35,047 nucleotides of DNA from Candidatus Coproplasma excrementavium (GTDB lineage: Bacteria > Bacillota > Clostridia > Christensenellales > Borkfalkiaceae). The notes beneath the pieces were generated by a model that was not told where the DNA came from, made no database searches, and saw only the letters and a program-made list of their open reading frames with translations. Numbering within the stretch: position 1 is the stretch's first letter; each line of letters begins with the position of its first letter. Of the stretch, positions 10,292 through 26,630 are shown one piece after another. A program made the translations under genes and the position numbers. The stretch is from assembly GCA_018715195.1 (NCBI GenBank), contig DVMA01000094.1:1-35047 (forward strand), in the 5' to 3' direction.

Positions 10292-10580
10292 TAGTCTCTG
10301 CCTGTATGCCGCACACCCCTTTCGCGCGCAATACAAGTATATAATATGCTGCATTTTTTGCAAAAAAAATTTTTTTTGATTGTTGCAAAAATGGTCTTAT
10401 GAACAGCTGTCTGATACTCAACATGCGCATAAAATTATTTTTTTGCGTTTACTTTTATTGCAAATAATGACTGACATTAAGAACATTAGCAAATGATATT
10501 GCAATCATTCTGCAGAAAATATATTCACAAATTACATTTTCCGCTGTCCCAGCAAAAGTGCCTTTTCACTGCGCATCTTA

Positions 10581-10614
10581 AAAAAGCGGTGAAAAAAAGC
10601 CGCTGACCGCTTTT
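10581..10614 (-). terminator. Terminator of the candidate ncRNA
   Basis: On the minus strand AAAAGCGGT pairs with ACCGCTTTT (9 bp) and runs into further T residues. An alternative inner fold (AAAAGC/GCTTTT followed by TTT) is also possible. It lies between the structured region and the two-component promoter. Confidence 0.6.
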
Positions 10615-10720
10615 CGCATATCACCGACCTTAACCGTATTTAGCAACTTTGCATTGCTCTATGGTGGTTAGCCATTCTATTGTGGTGCCGACCGTTTAAC
10701 ACACTTCCATACTTCGACAT

Positions 10721-11063
10721 CGAAAATTGTACGTTTATAAAACCCGTCGCGGCACGTCTTAAAACACTCGATAACAACGGCTTTCCGCTTGAAAAACGGT
10801 ACTCTTATAATCGCAAAATAAATTTTGCGATTGCGATACCGGCAACTTTTGCTCAAATGCCGCTTCGCGCCGCTTGGCAAAAGTTTATGGAATCTTAAAA
10901 GCCTGTCATCGCGCGTCTTTTTCGGACAATGGGATATAACGGCTTTTTCGGAAAAATCGTATCACAAAAAAGCCCCTCATCGCCCGACGAAAAACGATAA
11001 CCAAACAAAGGCATTCGCGTTCAAAAATTTGTACGCTTATAAAGCCCTGTCTTGGCTCGTCTT
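10721..11063. repeat. Four degenerate direct repeats inside the ncRNA region
   Basis: Imperfect copies of an AAAGCCC-GTC-TCGC-CGTCTTT-like word occur at about 10721-10760, 10891-10920, 10965-10988 and 11021-11063 (plus strand). The first and last are the most alike, sharing AAAATT, GTACG, TTATAAA and CGTCTT in the same order and spacing. They may reflect repeated structural modules of the RNA. Confidence 0.45.
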
Positions 11064-11226
11064 TCAGACGGCTCGGGTGCAGCGCGTTCGCGCTGAAACA
11101 TTGCGGAAAGTATCACTCTCCGCGGCGCAATCCTATTATGCGCCACTCTCCCATAAGGGGAGTACGCCGTACTAATTTCAAAGCACGGCAAAAGAGTACA
11201 GACCATATCCCCGCCTGTACTCTCGC

Positions 11227-11255
11227 ATTATACCATATCAATTCCGTTTTGTCAA
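11227..11255 (-). promoter_or_regulatory. Consensus promoter of the candidate ncRNA
   Basis: On the minus strand TTGACA (11250-11255) and TATAAT (11227-11232) are both perfect and exactly 17 bases apart, with an extended -10 TGG. The predicted start is at 11220-11221, inside the first strand of the 5' hairpin. No open reading frame with a ribosome site follows, which is why a non-coding transcript is proposed. Confidence 0.75.
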
Positions 11256-11346
11256 TAAAATACAAACATTTGTTCACAATATTTTGTTTATTGTCTTACA
11301 ATACATTCAATTTACTAAAATAGTGAACCATATATTTTCACTCTTC

Positions 11347-11375: not shown

Positions 11376-11404
11376 ACAGTTAATTATTGAAGGAAAATTC
11401 TCGC

Positions 11405-12191
11405 ATGATTAAACAAGGTAAAGTCAAAAAATACAAATTTGCCGTAAAAGCATTTCCCATTTTTGCGTCAATCGTTATGATTGCGTCAATTACCATAATG
11501 ACGTCCGCATGTTCATTTTTGCCTAAATATAGTAATCCGGAAAGTATTGACATTGACGGCGAAACATATATGACCGGATTTTATGAGAATTTATGGGTGG
11601 AAGGCATTGTCTTTGGCGAGGACGATATCCCGGATTTTGAAACGAAATATCATATTTGGTGGAAAGTAGAAAATGCGCCGTTCGATATGTACTGCGCTCA
11701 AAATAAGGAAGCTCTGTGGTGGAATCCGACTATTTATTGTAAAAAAAAGTCAATTTGACACGGTAAAAAACTATTATGAGGACGCAGATAATTTTAATTA
11801 TTATGCGGGATTGTACGGCGACAGCAATAAAGACAGCCGCATTCTCTTGGACGGGAATCTGAATTATTCCTTTTTGGAAGAGGCGATTGTTTTGAATATG
11901 CAGATCAAGGCGAATTTAGAGAAAGGGTCTCTGACGGGCAAAGAAGATTTTTCTGATATAGAAGTTCATGTTCCTTCCGACGAAATTTTGCCGGTTCAAC
12001 CTGTCTTATATAGGATAAGCAAGGATGGCTTTTTTACAACCATTCAAAACAGTTGGATTGTAACAAAAAAAGAAATATATATAGAGGGTATGTACGACGG
12101 AGAAGCGGAACAAAGTTATACCGCCTATAAAATCAGTAGTGAATCAAATGAATACATCTTGAAATTGCTTTCTGAAAACGGCATAATATAA
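11405..12191 (+). pseudogene. Small lipoprotein gene with a frameshift at an A8 run
   Basis: A predicted secreted lipoprotein of unknown function, split over two frames. The first part (11405-11758) has a basic start, a hydrophobic stretch and a lipobox-like TSAC (Cys36), then a mature region with FYENLWVEGIVFGEDDIPDF. It stops shortly after eight A residues at 11741-11748. Removing one A gives a continuous 261-aa protein reading CKKSQFDTVKNYYEDADN, which continues in the other frame to 12191. The ATG at 11405 is preferred because AAGGA lies about ten bases upstream. A TTG at 11387 sits too near the predicted transcription start. The gene is AT-richer than its neighbours and has its own promoter and terminator, so it may be an acquired cassette. 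The shift could be a real mutation, transcriptional slippage or a sequencing/assembly error. Confidence 0.7.
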
Positions 12192-12290
12192 AGATACCAT
12201 ATAAGCCTATAGTGATTTGACTGCCGGCAAGAGTGGTGTATTTGTGTTTTTCTGATGAGCTGTTACTTCGCGATAGATATTTGATAACAG

Positions 12291-12332
12291 AAAAGAGAGC
12301 GAACTATCGTTTCCGATAGTTCGCTCTCTTTT
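12291..12332. terminator. Bidirectional terminator between convergent genes
   Basis: A 19-bp perfect stem (AAAAGAGAGCGAACTATCG against its complement, 4-base loop) is flanked by A and T runs on both sides. It serves the plus-strand lipoprotein gene and probably the minus-strand L15-like gene too. Confidence 0.85.
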
Positions 12333-12340
12333 CTCGCTTG

Positions 12341-12399
12341 AAAGTGCAATTCCTATTAAAATTTAATTTTAATTTTACTCCCTATGGGAATTGCGCTTT
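12341..12399. repeat. 59-bp imperfect palindrome with AT-rich core
   Basis: AAAGTGCAATTCC at 12341-12353 pairs with GGAATTGCGCTTT at 12387-12399 (13 bp, one G-U) around an AT-rich centre that can itself fold. It lies right beside a complete terminator, so it may be a second terminator for the minus-strand gene or a small mobile palindromic repeat. Confidence 0.5.
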
Positions 12400-12426
12400 T
12401 GGGCGCCCCTGTTTATCATTTACATT

Positions 12427-14175
12427 TTATTTTTTCTTTGTACGAATGGCGCGACCGCCCGTTAAAACTATCATTTTGACAGCTTCAAGCGAGAAGTCGT
12501 CCGCCACGACAACCAGCGGCTTGGAGAGCTTGCCGCGCGCAAGCACCTTTATGTAGGTGACGCTCTTTGCAACGAAAGGCACGCGTTTTTTGATTTCGTC
12601 AAGCGTTACTCTTTCGCCCTCTTCAAAGAACTGACCGAGCGTGTCTATGTTGATTACGCCCGACTTTGACTTATCGGAGAGCTCTTCGCCCTGCTGAACG
12701 CGCAGTTTTGCCTTGTCGTCCGCCATAAGCGAACCGACATCTGCCGCGCTGACCTCTTCAAGCTCGTCTTCGTCATCGTCGTCGAAGTCCTCGCCTTCAA
12801 AGTCGTCGTCATCTTCAAATTCTTCTTCAACGACGGGTGCCTGGCCTTCCGCCTCGGCGGGAAGCGCAACCTCTTCGTAGCTTACTATCTTGATAAGTCC
12901 CCTTTCGACAAGCGGCTGAGTTTCCTCATAGGGGATATCGGAGAAGTCCTCTTCCGTATGGTCGGAATGTTCAGCGCCGTCAAACAATTTGGCTATAAGC
13001 TCCTTTGCGTAGCGGCAACGTCTGTCGTTTTTGATGCGGTACAACAGCGGAGTATTGGCAAACTTTGCGTAGCGGGACATATCGTCCACTATGTACTTGC
13101 TCTCCGCATAGTCGGCGGGATTGAGCGCCAGACAGAGGCAGAGCGTCTTGCCGCGGATGACGAATTTAGCCACCGACGGTCTGCCGTAACGGAATGATTC
13201 GTGCCTCCAGCTTACGCGGGGAACGACCTTTTTATATGCGAGCAACGCATTTTTAAGCTCGGAATAGTAACGCTTTACCTTTTCTTCCGACTGAATGAGC
13301 TTTGCGGAAAAGCTGCGGTTGTAGCGGTACCTTATGAACATTCCAGGGTGAGGCTTTATGAAAGTTACGTGCCCCTGGTCGGCCTGTCTTTCAAGCTCGG
13401 CACGCTGTTCTTCTGAAAGTTGGCTTGCCGAATTCTGCGCGGGCGCAGACTCATTTTTCTGCTCTGACGGCTGTTCGGCAGCAATTACCGTCTGCGACTG
13501 CTGCGATTTTTCAGCCTTTTCAGATTCGGGCATTGTTGTTTCGGGTTTCTGCTCTTCAGCGGGCACATCTTCTGCCTTTTCGGGTTCGGCAGACTGCGCC
13601 GCAGTTTCAGCAGTCTGAACTGACTGTTCTTCTGAAGTTTCCGCTTTTCCAGATACTGCCTCTTCAGCAGGTTGTGAGTCCTTAACGGCGGGCTGCTGCT
13701 CTTGCTCCGTAACCTCGCTTACCTCCGACTGTGCGGCAGATTGCCCTGCGACTATTGCCGATTCAACGGGTTGTCCATCAGTTTCTGAGGACATTGCCGC
13801 AGTTTCAACGGGTTGCGTTGCGGGTTCGGCTGATTGCTCATTGGTTTCGGCAGATACAGCCATAGCCACAGATTCAGCGGGCTGCGTTGCGGGTTCGGCA
13901 AGATCCTCGGCCGAGGAAGCCACCTGCTTTTCAGATTCAGCGACGACGGGAACGTCGGGTAATTCTTGTTCAGCCTTTGCGATATCGGCAAGCCCCTCGC
14001 TTTCGCGCAGAGCGCGGCGGCGGGCCCTTTCCTTACGGATACGGGCGGAGCAGACGATTATTACGATGAGCGCAACAACTACGACTACCGCGCCTGCAAC
14101 TATGAGAACCGTGGAAAGGTTTGCCTTTAAAAACGCAAGGGCGTCAGATAAAACCGAGAGTAATGAATTTTTCAT
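12427..14175 (-). CDS. Membrane-anchored low-complexity protein with ribosomal L15-like C-terminal domain
   Basis: 582 aa; function unknown. An N-terminal membrane helix (about residues 16-42) is followed by a basic stretch, then roughly 200 residues of Ala/Glu/Ser/Gln/Pro-rich low complexity with imperfect SAEPATQPVE-type repeats. A globular region follows (about 275-410; HPGMFIRYRYNRSF, VPRVSWRHESFRYGRPSV) of a kind seen in clostridial hypothetical proteins. After a very acidic stretch (FEDDDDFEGEDFDDDDEDE), the last 75 residues or so (INIDTLGQFFEEGERVT, IKVLARGKLSKPLVVVADDF, EAVKMIVLTGGRAI) match the pattern of the uL15 C-terminal domain. Ordinary rplO is not anchored or fused like this. 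The ATG at 14175 is chosen over a GTG at 14199 that abuts GGGGG. The chosen start sits behind a hairpin that brings GGGGG to a usable distance. Confidence 0.7.
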   Translation of the reverse strand: MKNSLLSVLSDALAFLKANLSTVLIVAGAVVVVVALIVIIVCSARIRKERARRRALRESEGLADIAKAEQELPDVPVVAESEKQVASSAEDLAEPATQPAESVAMAVSAETNEQSAEPATQPVETAAMSSETDGQPVESAIVAGQSAAQSEVSEVTEQEQQPAVKDSQPAEEAVSGKAETSEEQSVQTAETAAQSAEPEKAEDVPAEEQKPETTMPESEKAEKSQQSQTVIAAEQPSEQKNESAPAQNSASQLSEEQRAELERQADQGHVTFIKPHPGMFIRYRYNRSFSAKLIQSEEKVKRYYSELKNALLAYKKVVPRVSWRHESFRYGRPSVAKFVIRGKTLCLCLALNPADYAESKYIVDDMSRYAKFANTPLLYRIKNDRRCRYAKELIAKLFDGAEHSDHTEEDFSDIPYEETQPLVERGLIKIVSYEEVALPAEAEGQAPVVEEEFEDDDDFEGEDFDDDDEDELEEVSAADVGSLMADDKAKLRVQQGEELSDKSKSGVINIDTLGQFFEEGERVTLDEIKKRVPFVAKSVTYIKVLARGKLSKPLVVVADDFSLEAVKMIVLTGGRAIRTKKK

Positions 14176-14205
14176 GACACCGTGCCAAAAAAATGGCACA
14201 CCCCC
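14176..14205 (-). promoter_or_regulatory. Hairpin between ribosome site and start codon
   Basis: On the minus strand GGGGG (14201-14205) is separated from the ATG at 14175 by 25 bases, 18 of which form a GTGCCA/TGGCAC hairpin with a T6 loop (14182-14199). With the hairpin folded, about seven bases remain between the ribosome site and the ATG. Structured spacing of this kind could tune translation. Confidence 0.45.
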
Positions 14206-26494: not shown

Positions 26495-26503
26495 CTTTCC
26501 ACA

Positions 26504-26630
26504 ACCTATAAAGAGTGTGCGAGGGAACGGCCCTTTGACCACACAGCAACCTGCAAAGCAAGGTGCTAATGCCGTACCGATGGGGTAAATAATTAAGGTA
26601 AGTTTGCTCCGCGGGCGCGGGGCTTTTATT
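26504..26630 (+). ncRNA. SAM-I (S-box) riboswitch with intrinsic terminator
   Basis: Senses S-adenosylmethionine and shuts off metK when SAM is high. Core S-box words are present: AGAG, GAGGGAACGGCCC, TTTGACC, CAGCAACC and GCAAGGTGCTAAT. P1 is ACCT(A)TAA with TTAAGGT (26593-26599), P2 is GTGTG/CACAC, P3 is CC-TGC/GCA-GG and P4 is TACC/GGTA. The P2 loop ACGG can pair with CCGT after the CTAAT, the family pseudoknot with a co-varied sequence. The expression platform is a GCTCCGCG/CGCGGGGC hairpin (26606-26623) followed by TTTTATTTT. An antiterminator partner was not traced in detail. Confidence 0.93.

Follow-up and report, generated by a model that had tools for sequence, protein, structure and literature searches.

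The locus that concerns us lies on the minus strand of the window, by which we mean the whole 35,047-nt stretch of Candidatus Coproplasma excrementavium DNA that was analysed, and it poses a question: what is the product of a consensus promoter that reads into several hundred nucleotides of hairpins? The sequence-only reading had proposed a large structured RNA of unknown class, with an extended -10 promoter at its head, almost continuous stems in its 5' half and a terminator at its end. These elements were all found. The promoter stands at 11255-11227, the hairpins are dense and T-runs follow those at the 3' end, and the 5' stems at 11058-11223 are present and covary among homologues. Absent from that reading was a LexA-type box at 11275-11264. 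Along the minus strand (11275-10580), the unit comprises this box, the promoter, the RNA and the terminator, in that order:

11264..11275, minus: LexA/SOS-type operator GAACAAATGTTT, 8 nt 5' of the -35 element and of the palindrome class found at lexA; no binding data
11227..11255, minus: consensus promoter TTGACA-17-TATAAT with a TG extension, from the sequence and kept in a 28-copy alignment
10580..11220, minus: structured RNA, from fold z-score (-7.66), homologues and absence of an Rfam match; ends predicted, unmapped
11055..11224, minus: 5' domain, from a 24-sequence alignment and covariation
~11224-11192, 11188-11167, 11123-11103 and 11095-11080, minus: hairpins of the 5' domain
11077-11058, minus: conserved core CCCGAGCCGTCTGAAAGACG of the 5' domain
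10690..11054, minus: variable body with GGGCTTTT...TACAATTTTT-like hairpin modules, from comparison of copies
10584..10686, minus: 3' domain, from a 69-sequence alignment and covariation
10675-10661, minus: hairpin ATGG/CCAT of the 3' domain
10669-10666 with 10635-10632, minus: pseudoknot of the 3' domain, AACC with GGTT
10630-10597, then 10598-10592, minus: terminator stem, which follows hairpin AGC/GCT of the 3' domain, and its T-run

The promoter consists of TTGACA (11255-11250), a 17-nt spacer and TATAAT (11232-11227) with TGG ahead of it, which makes it an extended -10 promoter. The predicted RNA starts at about 11220 and is ~630-640 nt long; its 3' hairpins are followed by two T-runs (10598-10592 and 10585-10580). 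Its folding energy is -248.9 kcal/mol, vs. -192.25 (sd 7.4) for dinucleotide shuffles, and none of 20 shuffles folded as well. No Rfam model matched the RNA strand, either at the gathering score or at E values up to 5. ROOL, GOLLD, OLE, HEARO and raiA have Rfam models; with no match on the RNA strand, membership in these classes is not supported, and the earlier failure to place the RNA with ROOL, GOLLD or OLE stands. Seven relatives searched against Rfam gave tRNA matches only. The host genome carries a single copy.

Does the region code for protein instead? In 27 copies, 43 of the 390 indels relative to the window had a length divisible by three. The four small ORFs that the window contains were open and matched over 80% in 0, 0, 0 and 10 of these copies. 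Open stretches do occur in some copies, the longest being 177 codons. Because of the indel pattern and because the ORFs are not kept, we rejected a protein-coding reading; the initial impression that the region holds no credible gene was sound, as no protein frame is kept across the homologues. Judged from sequence, the existence of a structured, uncatalogued RNA is confirmed, and its transcription is inferred.

A DNA search of the host family returned matches in 52 of 301 genomes (host included) and 6 of 18 genera, often split into two to four pieces. Homology in most copies begins just 5' of the promoter and ends near the terminator; one copy, L124, has more of the upstream flank in common with the window than most. 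The 3'-domain pattern marked 79 stretches in named genomes (e.g. Borkfalkia, Coproplasma, Pumilibacter intestinalis and Anaerocaecibacter muris). Two named strains, P. intestinalis CLA-AA-M10 and A. muris CLA-AA-M11, carry the RNA, which makes it testable. The 118 matches from two sources were reduced to 79 distinct copies by merging identical 300-nt stretches; two 5' parts without a 3' domain by the pattern (L031 and L041) were left out of the 79. All counts are of distinct copies and not of independent events, as related genomes share copies.

Within the order, a covariance model of the 3' domain matched 23 of 396 genomes, one of them the host; two of these matches were weak, one being tRNA-like and the other partial but ahead of a MobV gene. 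Applied with Infernal under stricter filters to 397 other genomes sampled from the phylum, the model matched none. Searches of phage and plasmid collections with blastn gave no match, nor did the 3'-domain pattern in viral contigs. Since the searches beyond the order, in phages and in plasmids found nothing, the family seems restricted to a single order. By inference, contigs that bear the labels Alphaproteobacteria, Traorella or Scatousia are probably misbinned.

We examined whether the fold is conserved domain by domain. For the 5' domain, the RNAalifold consensus of 24 sequences had 97.0% of its cells paired, with double changes in 10 of 36 pairs. Its covariation was 0.245, vs. 0.175 in shuffled alignments and at most 0.082 with partners slid; the number of pair types was not clearly above that of the shuffles, 32 of 500 of which reached the same value. 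The 3' domain (69 sequences) had 95.9% of its cells paired and double changes in 11 of 26 pairs, with covariation of 0.227 vs. 0.121 shuffled and at most 0.050 slid. Because the sequences were visible when this structure was drawn, the slide control is biased towards it. The last pair of ATGG/CCAT is U-A in seven copies and unpaired in three, and further genomes have ATGA/TCAT. AACC lies in the loop of this hairpin, and the outer pair of its pseudoknot with GGTT is A-U in 44 of the 69 sequences, G-C in 14, G-U in 4 and unpaired in 7. Five T positions 3' of the terminator stem are invariant in the same alignment. The sequence-only reading had named covarying base pairs among homologues as a check; such pairs are present in both domains by the shuffle and slide controls, and the criterion for a large structured RNA is met.

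The alignments differ in the copies used. The 28-row alignment (window included) left out eight one-ended, three incomplete and two duplicate copies. The 3'-domain alignment, A3, holds 69 of 71 distinct segments; the two omitted are L040, which has lost part of the 3' domain by deletion, and L103, which runs into the end of its locus. Alignment A2 has 24 rows, and alignment A4 has 61 of 64.

Between the two domains, the body is variable. Its GGGCTTTT...TACAATTTTT modules number 97 in total and occur in 59 of 75 copies; those of the window lie at ~11033 and 10961 by script and at 10731 by eye. The stretch at ~10896-10810 is missing in several relatives. In 55 copies the distance from promoter to 3' domain was measured; it is 227-573 nt, except in three of these copies, where inserted genes bring it to 980-1451 nt. 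The inference of one transcript with a conserved fold is supported in that the unit recurs from promoter to terminator in dozens of genomes and its pairs covary, though its length is not fixed. Cargo was seen inside the RNA body in L124, L100 and L074 and just 5' of the 3' domain in L046 and L054, the ORFs being an unknown one of 166 aa, an HTH gene, a RES-like gene (just under the Pfam cut-off), a ParE toxin with a Phd-like partner, and one unnamed. Genes at these places indicate that the body tolerates or collects cargo.

Downstream sequence of 1300 nt or more is available for 57 distinct copies, and 51 of them have a co-oriented relaxase gene (MobV or MobP) within the next three ORFs. A MobV-type neighbour was found in 46 copies, as the first ORF in 42, and a MobC-plus-MobP pair in 7; Pfam searches of representatives gave Mob_Pre, and NikA-like/MobC with Relaxase. 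Six of the 57 have no intact relaxase ORF, namely the window, L046, L062, L074, L111 and L138; in L111 a MobV start is visible, and its close relative L221 has MobV. At the covariance-model loci, a relaxase lies downstream in 16 of 21. Of the 79 copies, many of them cut by contig ends, 16 have a serine recombinase no more than three ORFs away to one side or the other, and 6 have a tyrosine integrase at such a distance. With a relaxase adjoining and an integrase or recombinase nearby, the family as a whole meets the criterion for mobilizable elements. In the reverse direction, 18 MobV loci in 41 relatives were chosen regardless of the RNA, some of them truncated by contig ends; the 3' domain was clear in 6 and partial in 1. 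The RNA thus marks one class of such elements, not all.

What lies between the terminator and the relaxase gene? A ribosome-binding site and a micro-ORF follow, in nearly all cases ~67-83 nt 3' of the T-run. The micro-ORF ends in Arg-Pro-Pro-stop (e.g. MNKQTTIRPP or MTIRPP) in 63 of 77 distinct copies, against a background of 127 in 12,000 random 200-nt windows from the same loci, true ones included. (Unmerged, the count was 70 of 87, with two more by eye, and held copies from two collections.) Fourteen of the 77 copies are without it, and four of these have the endings GPP, GPP, IPP and RPL. Third-position codon changes and variation in the stop codon indicate that the peptide is conserved, not the DNA alone. 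Farther 3', an oriT-like TAGTGnGnTA was present in 50 of the 66 copies with enough gap, vs. 27 of 1320 mononucleotide shuffles. Of these sites, 38 are on the bottom strand and 12 on the top, which led us to drop the idea that the RNA always enters first in transfer. We also rejected a hairpin between terminator and micro-ORF: it appeared conserved by eye, failed the covariation analysis and received no pairs from RNAalifold.

Few other consensus promoters could serve the micro-ORF. Between terminator and micro-ORF, a promoter score of at least 9 of 13 was reached in 1 of 58 copies, vs. 10% of shuffles; the scoring was limited to copies that have the micro-ORF, and promoters far from the consensus would escape it. 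From micro-ORF to relaxase gene, near the oriT-like site, the same score was reached in 8 of 43 copies vs. 9% of shuffles, and a weak promoter may exist there. The RNA's own promoter scores at least 10 in 60 of 71. The simplest view is therefore that the RNA's promoter also serves the micro-ORF. With consensus promoters so rare between terminator and micro-ORF, the RNA is probably the leader of the relaxase operon and attenuates it.

The aligned MobV start codons of 43 copies (L033-L140, collected with one N-terminal motif) are ATA in 36, ATT in 4 and ATC in 3; a second way of locating them gave ATA in 22, ATT in 2 and TTG in 1 (n=25). Exceptions are L148, which the motif missed and which seems to start with ATG, and L115, with TTG. 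The non-ATG starts have a good ribosome-binding site ahead. We rejected these starts as an RNA-specific trait, because the MobV loci L257 and L261, which are without the RNA, also have ATA.

Is the promoter tied to the SOS response? Among 75 copies whose upstream sequence extends for 650 nt or more, 55 have the palindrome RAACRNNYGTTY 8-10 nt 5' of the -35 element; a further 7 have a promoter-like site but no box, and 13 have neither. Random 20-nt windows contained the palindrome in 33 of 24,000 cases. The palindrome also lies just 5' of the main lexA gene, near its promoter's -35 element, in 20 of 20 genomes, and at 1 of 4 second lexA-like genes. In the host, the boxes are GAACGTTTGTTT at lexA and GAACAAATGTTT at the RNA. 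No box was found near recA at 20 loci; the motif occurs in two of these loci, only more than 600 nt off. A stricter box had 10 matches in the host genome vs. 18 for the reversed control, and with a count below the control only the locations of the matches are informative. The lexA gene, a Y-family polymerase gene and the window RNA have one each, and a DNA-repair radical-SAM gene (a TIGR03916 match above cut-off) has two. Another is ~190 nt from a RarA-like ATPase gene (below the curated cut-offs), a palindrome ahead of an unknown gene was counted on both strands, and two lie inside ORFs. As a separate observation, a LexA-type palindrome stands ahead of an unknown 133-aa ORF (G000 C75:10093-10106), a possible SOS gene. 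A box at the promoter of the motif class found at the host's lexA satisfies the sequence criterion for the LexA/SOS regulon. SOS control of integrative elements is known elsewhere. LexA control of the RNA promoter appears likely from the motif and its position; its sign has not been shown, and binding and damage induction are inferred. Repression is not certain, since the box is 5' of the -35 element and not at it, as in lexA.

The window copy stands apart from its family. No relaxase adjoins it, no micro-ORF follows its terminator, and no Mob_Pre or MobA/VirD2-type relaxase was found in the host genome (91% complete). It retains the operator, the promoter, both domains and the terminator. L124 is 90% identical over window positions 11823-10899, upstream flank included, and 94% in the 3' domain, and it has an inserted ORF inside the RNA body and the micro-ORF and MobV downstream. 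The best account of the window copy is that it became stranded from an L124-like relaxase element. The gene next 3' of the window RNA encodes a LytTR regulator. An agr/RNAIII-like arrangement of the RNA with the neighbouring LytTR/histidine-kinase pair was rejected, because such regulators occur in 93 of 93 genus-sample genomes, because identity outside the locus was at most 47% among the matches listed, and because neither the LytTR nor the kinase gene recurs beside any other of the 79 copies.

Other features of the window deserve mention in their own right. At 11387-12191 (plus strand), two overlapping ORFs without a Pfam match diverge from the RNA; part of this stretch is common to L124, and it is perhaps a broken cargo gene. 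A strong palindromic hairpin at 12285-12401, with like sequence in L031, L091, L099 and L118, looks like a dispersed repeat. An ORF of 590 aa at 12427-14199 (minus strand), near the bL9 gene, has as its sole Pfam match a C-terminal ribosomal L15/L27A-type domain. A SAM riboswitch (RF00162, 59 bits) lies at 26503-26586 (plus strand).

What might the RNA do? The reading that we prefer, while judging it no safer than an even call, is that it is the structured 5' leader of the relaxase operon of mobilizable elements in one order of gut Clostridia, held by LexA and attenuating. LexA would keep the promoter down until DNA is damaged. A transcript would then pass through the 5' hairpins, the modules and the 3' pseudoknot-terminator domain, where most transcripts would stop; those reading through would bear the micro-ORF, then the oriT-like site, then the relaxase gene. 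Slow termination at Arg-Pro-Pro-stop may form a second, translational gate. The family, its fold, its position ahead of the relaxase gene, the box and the micro-ORF emerge from comparison of the copies. That the RNA is transcribed, that LexA controls it, that transcripts read through and ribosomes stall, and in which direction each effect works are inferences, there being no expression data. The terminator and the Arg-Pro-Pro micro-ORF are conserved; that they act as an attenuation leader is inferred, and the hairpin between them is not supported. Counting against a leader is the window copy, whose fold is kept without a relaxase gene and would be unneeded in a leader acting purely in cis; five other copies with enough flank are likewise without an intact relaxase ORF.

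The window copy also keeps alive the thought that the RNA is a free-standing product, complete at its terminator and made upon induction of the element, that works in trans as a scaffold, sponge or anti-defence molecule, with relaxase adjacency reflecting only the order of a cassette. The intact fold in a host genome without a relaxase and the conserved terminator with its invariant T positions leave this reading open; the fold is very stable, and the repeated TACAATTTTT modules could be binding platforms. We nevertheless think it unlikely, if far from negligible, as the RNA is co-oriented 5' of a relaxase gene in 51 of 57 copies, the micro-ORF has few consensus promoters besides the RNA's own, and the body is of no fixed length and sometimes contains genes. 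Also unlikely, in our view, is a new class of large RNA that is made on DNA damage, acts itself in the transfer cycle (e.g. in an RNP or in anti-defence, co-expressed with the relaxase), is shared across relaxase and integrase types and still works in stranded copies. It is very unlikely that the structure acts chiefly as single-stranded DNA, as a single-strand origin or part of a transfer origin, with transcription secondary. It does adjoin the relaxase gene and the oriT-like site, and single-strand origins are known in ICEs (PMC4595007); a conserved promoter, operator and terminator followed by a micro-ORF are hard to square with such a role, and the oriT-like site occurs on either strand, so the transferred strand would not be constant. 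For the window copy alone, decay into a remnant with no present function, whatever the family does elsewhere, is a real possibility that we lean against. The missing relaxases speak for it, as does L124, which has the upstream flank in common and possesses the inserted ORF, micro-ORF and MobV gene; the intact box, promoter, 3'-domain helices and terminator speak against it.

If the leader reading is right, the leader would be unusually long; if the RNA works in trans, it adds a new member to the RNAs of mobile elements. Either way, one conserved block joins a DNA-damage box, a large RNA and a relaxase gene. From the sequences compared here, what is new is the family's relaxase adjacency, its micro-ORF and its lexA-type box, the RNA itself being uncatalogued. 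To our knowledge, no large structured RNA has been tied to conjugative mobilization. Among the matches listed in a search of the open-access literature none made that connection, which is no proof of absence.

How does the locus compare with known systems? Resemblances to tracrRNA, omega-RNA, a group II intron and kink-turns were considered in general terms only and set aside. ROOL and GOLLD are phage- or element-borne. Like ROOL, GOLLD and OLE, the present RNA has great size, dense stems and its own promoter and terminator; unlike them, it matches no Rfam model, differs in length from copy to copy, closes with a pseudoknot-terminator 3' domain and is accompanied by a relaxase gene and a micro-ORF. 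The picture of a ROOL/GOLLD/OLE-like RNA that could not be assigned to these classes, offered at the outset, was correct in that no Rfam model matches the RNA strand, but the RNA is probably a relaxase-operon leader and not free-standing. The tna and erm attenuator leaders similarly place a terminator and a short ORF with a stall-prone-looking end before a regulated gene. They differ in that here the structured part is hundreds of nucleotides long and 5' of the peptide, the gene is a relaxase gene, a LexA-type box is present and stalling is inferred. Structures of large RNAs of the ROOL/GOLLD/OLE type are reported in PMC12286853. In conAn and Tn916, termination and antitermination control conjugation operons of Gram-positive bacteria (PMC8955417, PMC11658703); the present locus shares termination-type control of such an operon as a proposal, and differs in that its conserved terminator ends a structured RNA. 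Plasmid pMV158 has a MobV-family relaxase with the nick region just 5' of mobM and two promoters in or beside oriT that drive mobM (PMC5863519). The family described here likewise places an oriT-like site just upstream of a MobV relaxase gene; in contrast to pMV158, it offers only weak promoter candidates at that site, and a large RNA and a micro-ORF come first.
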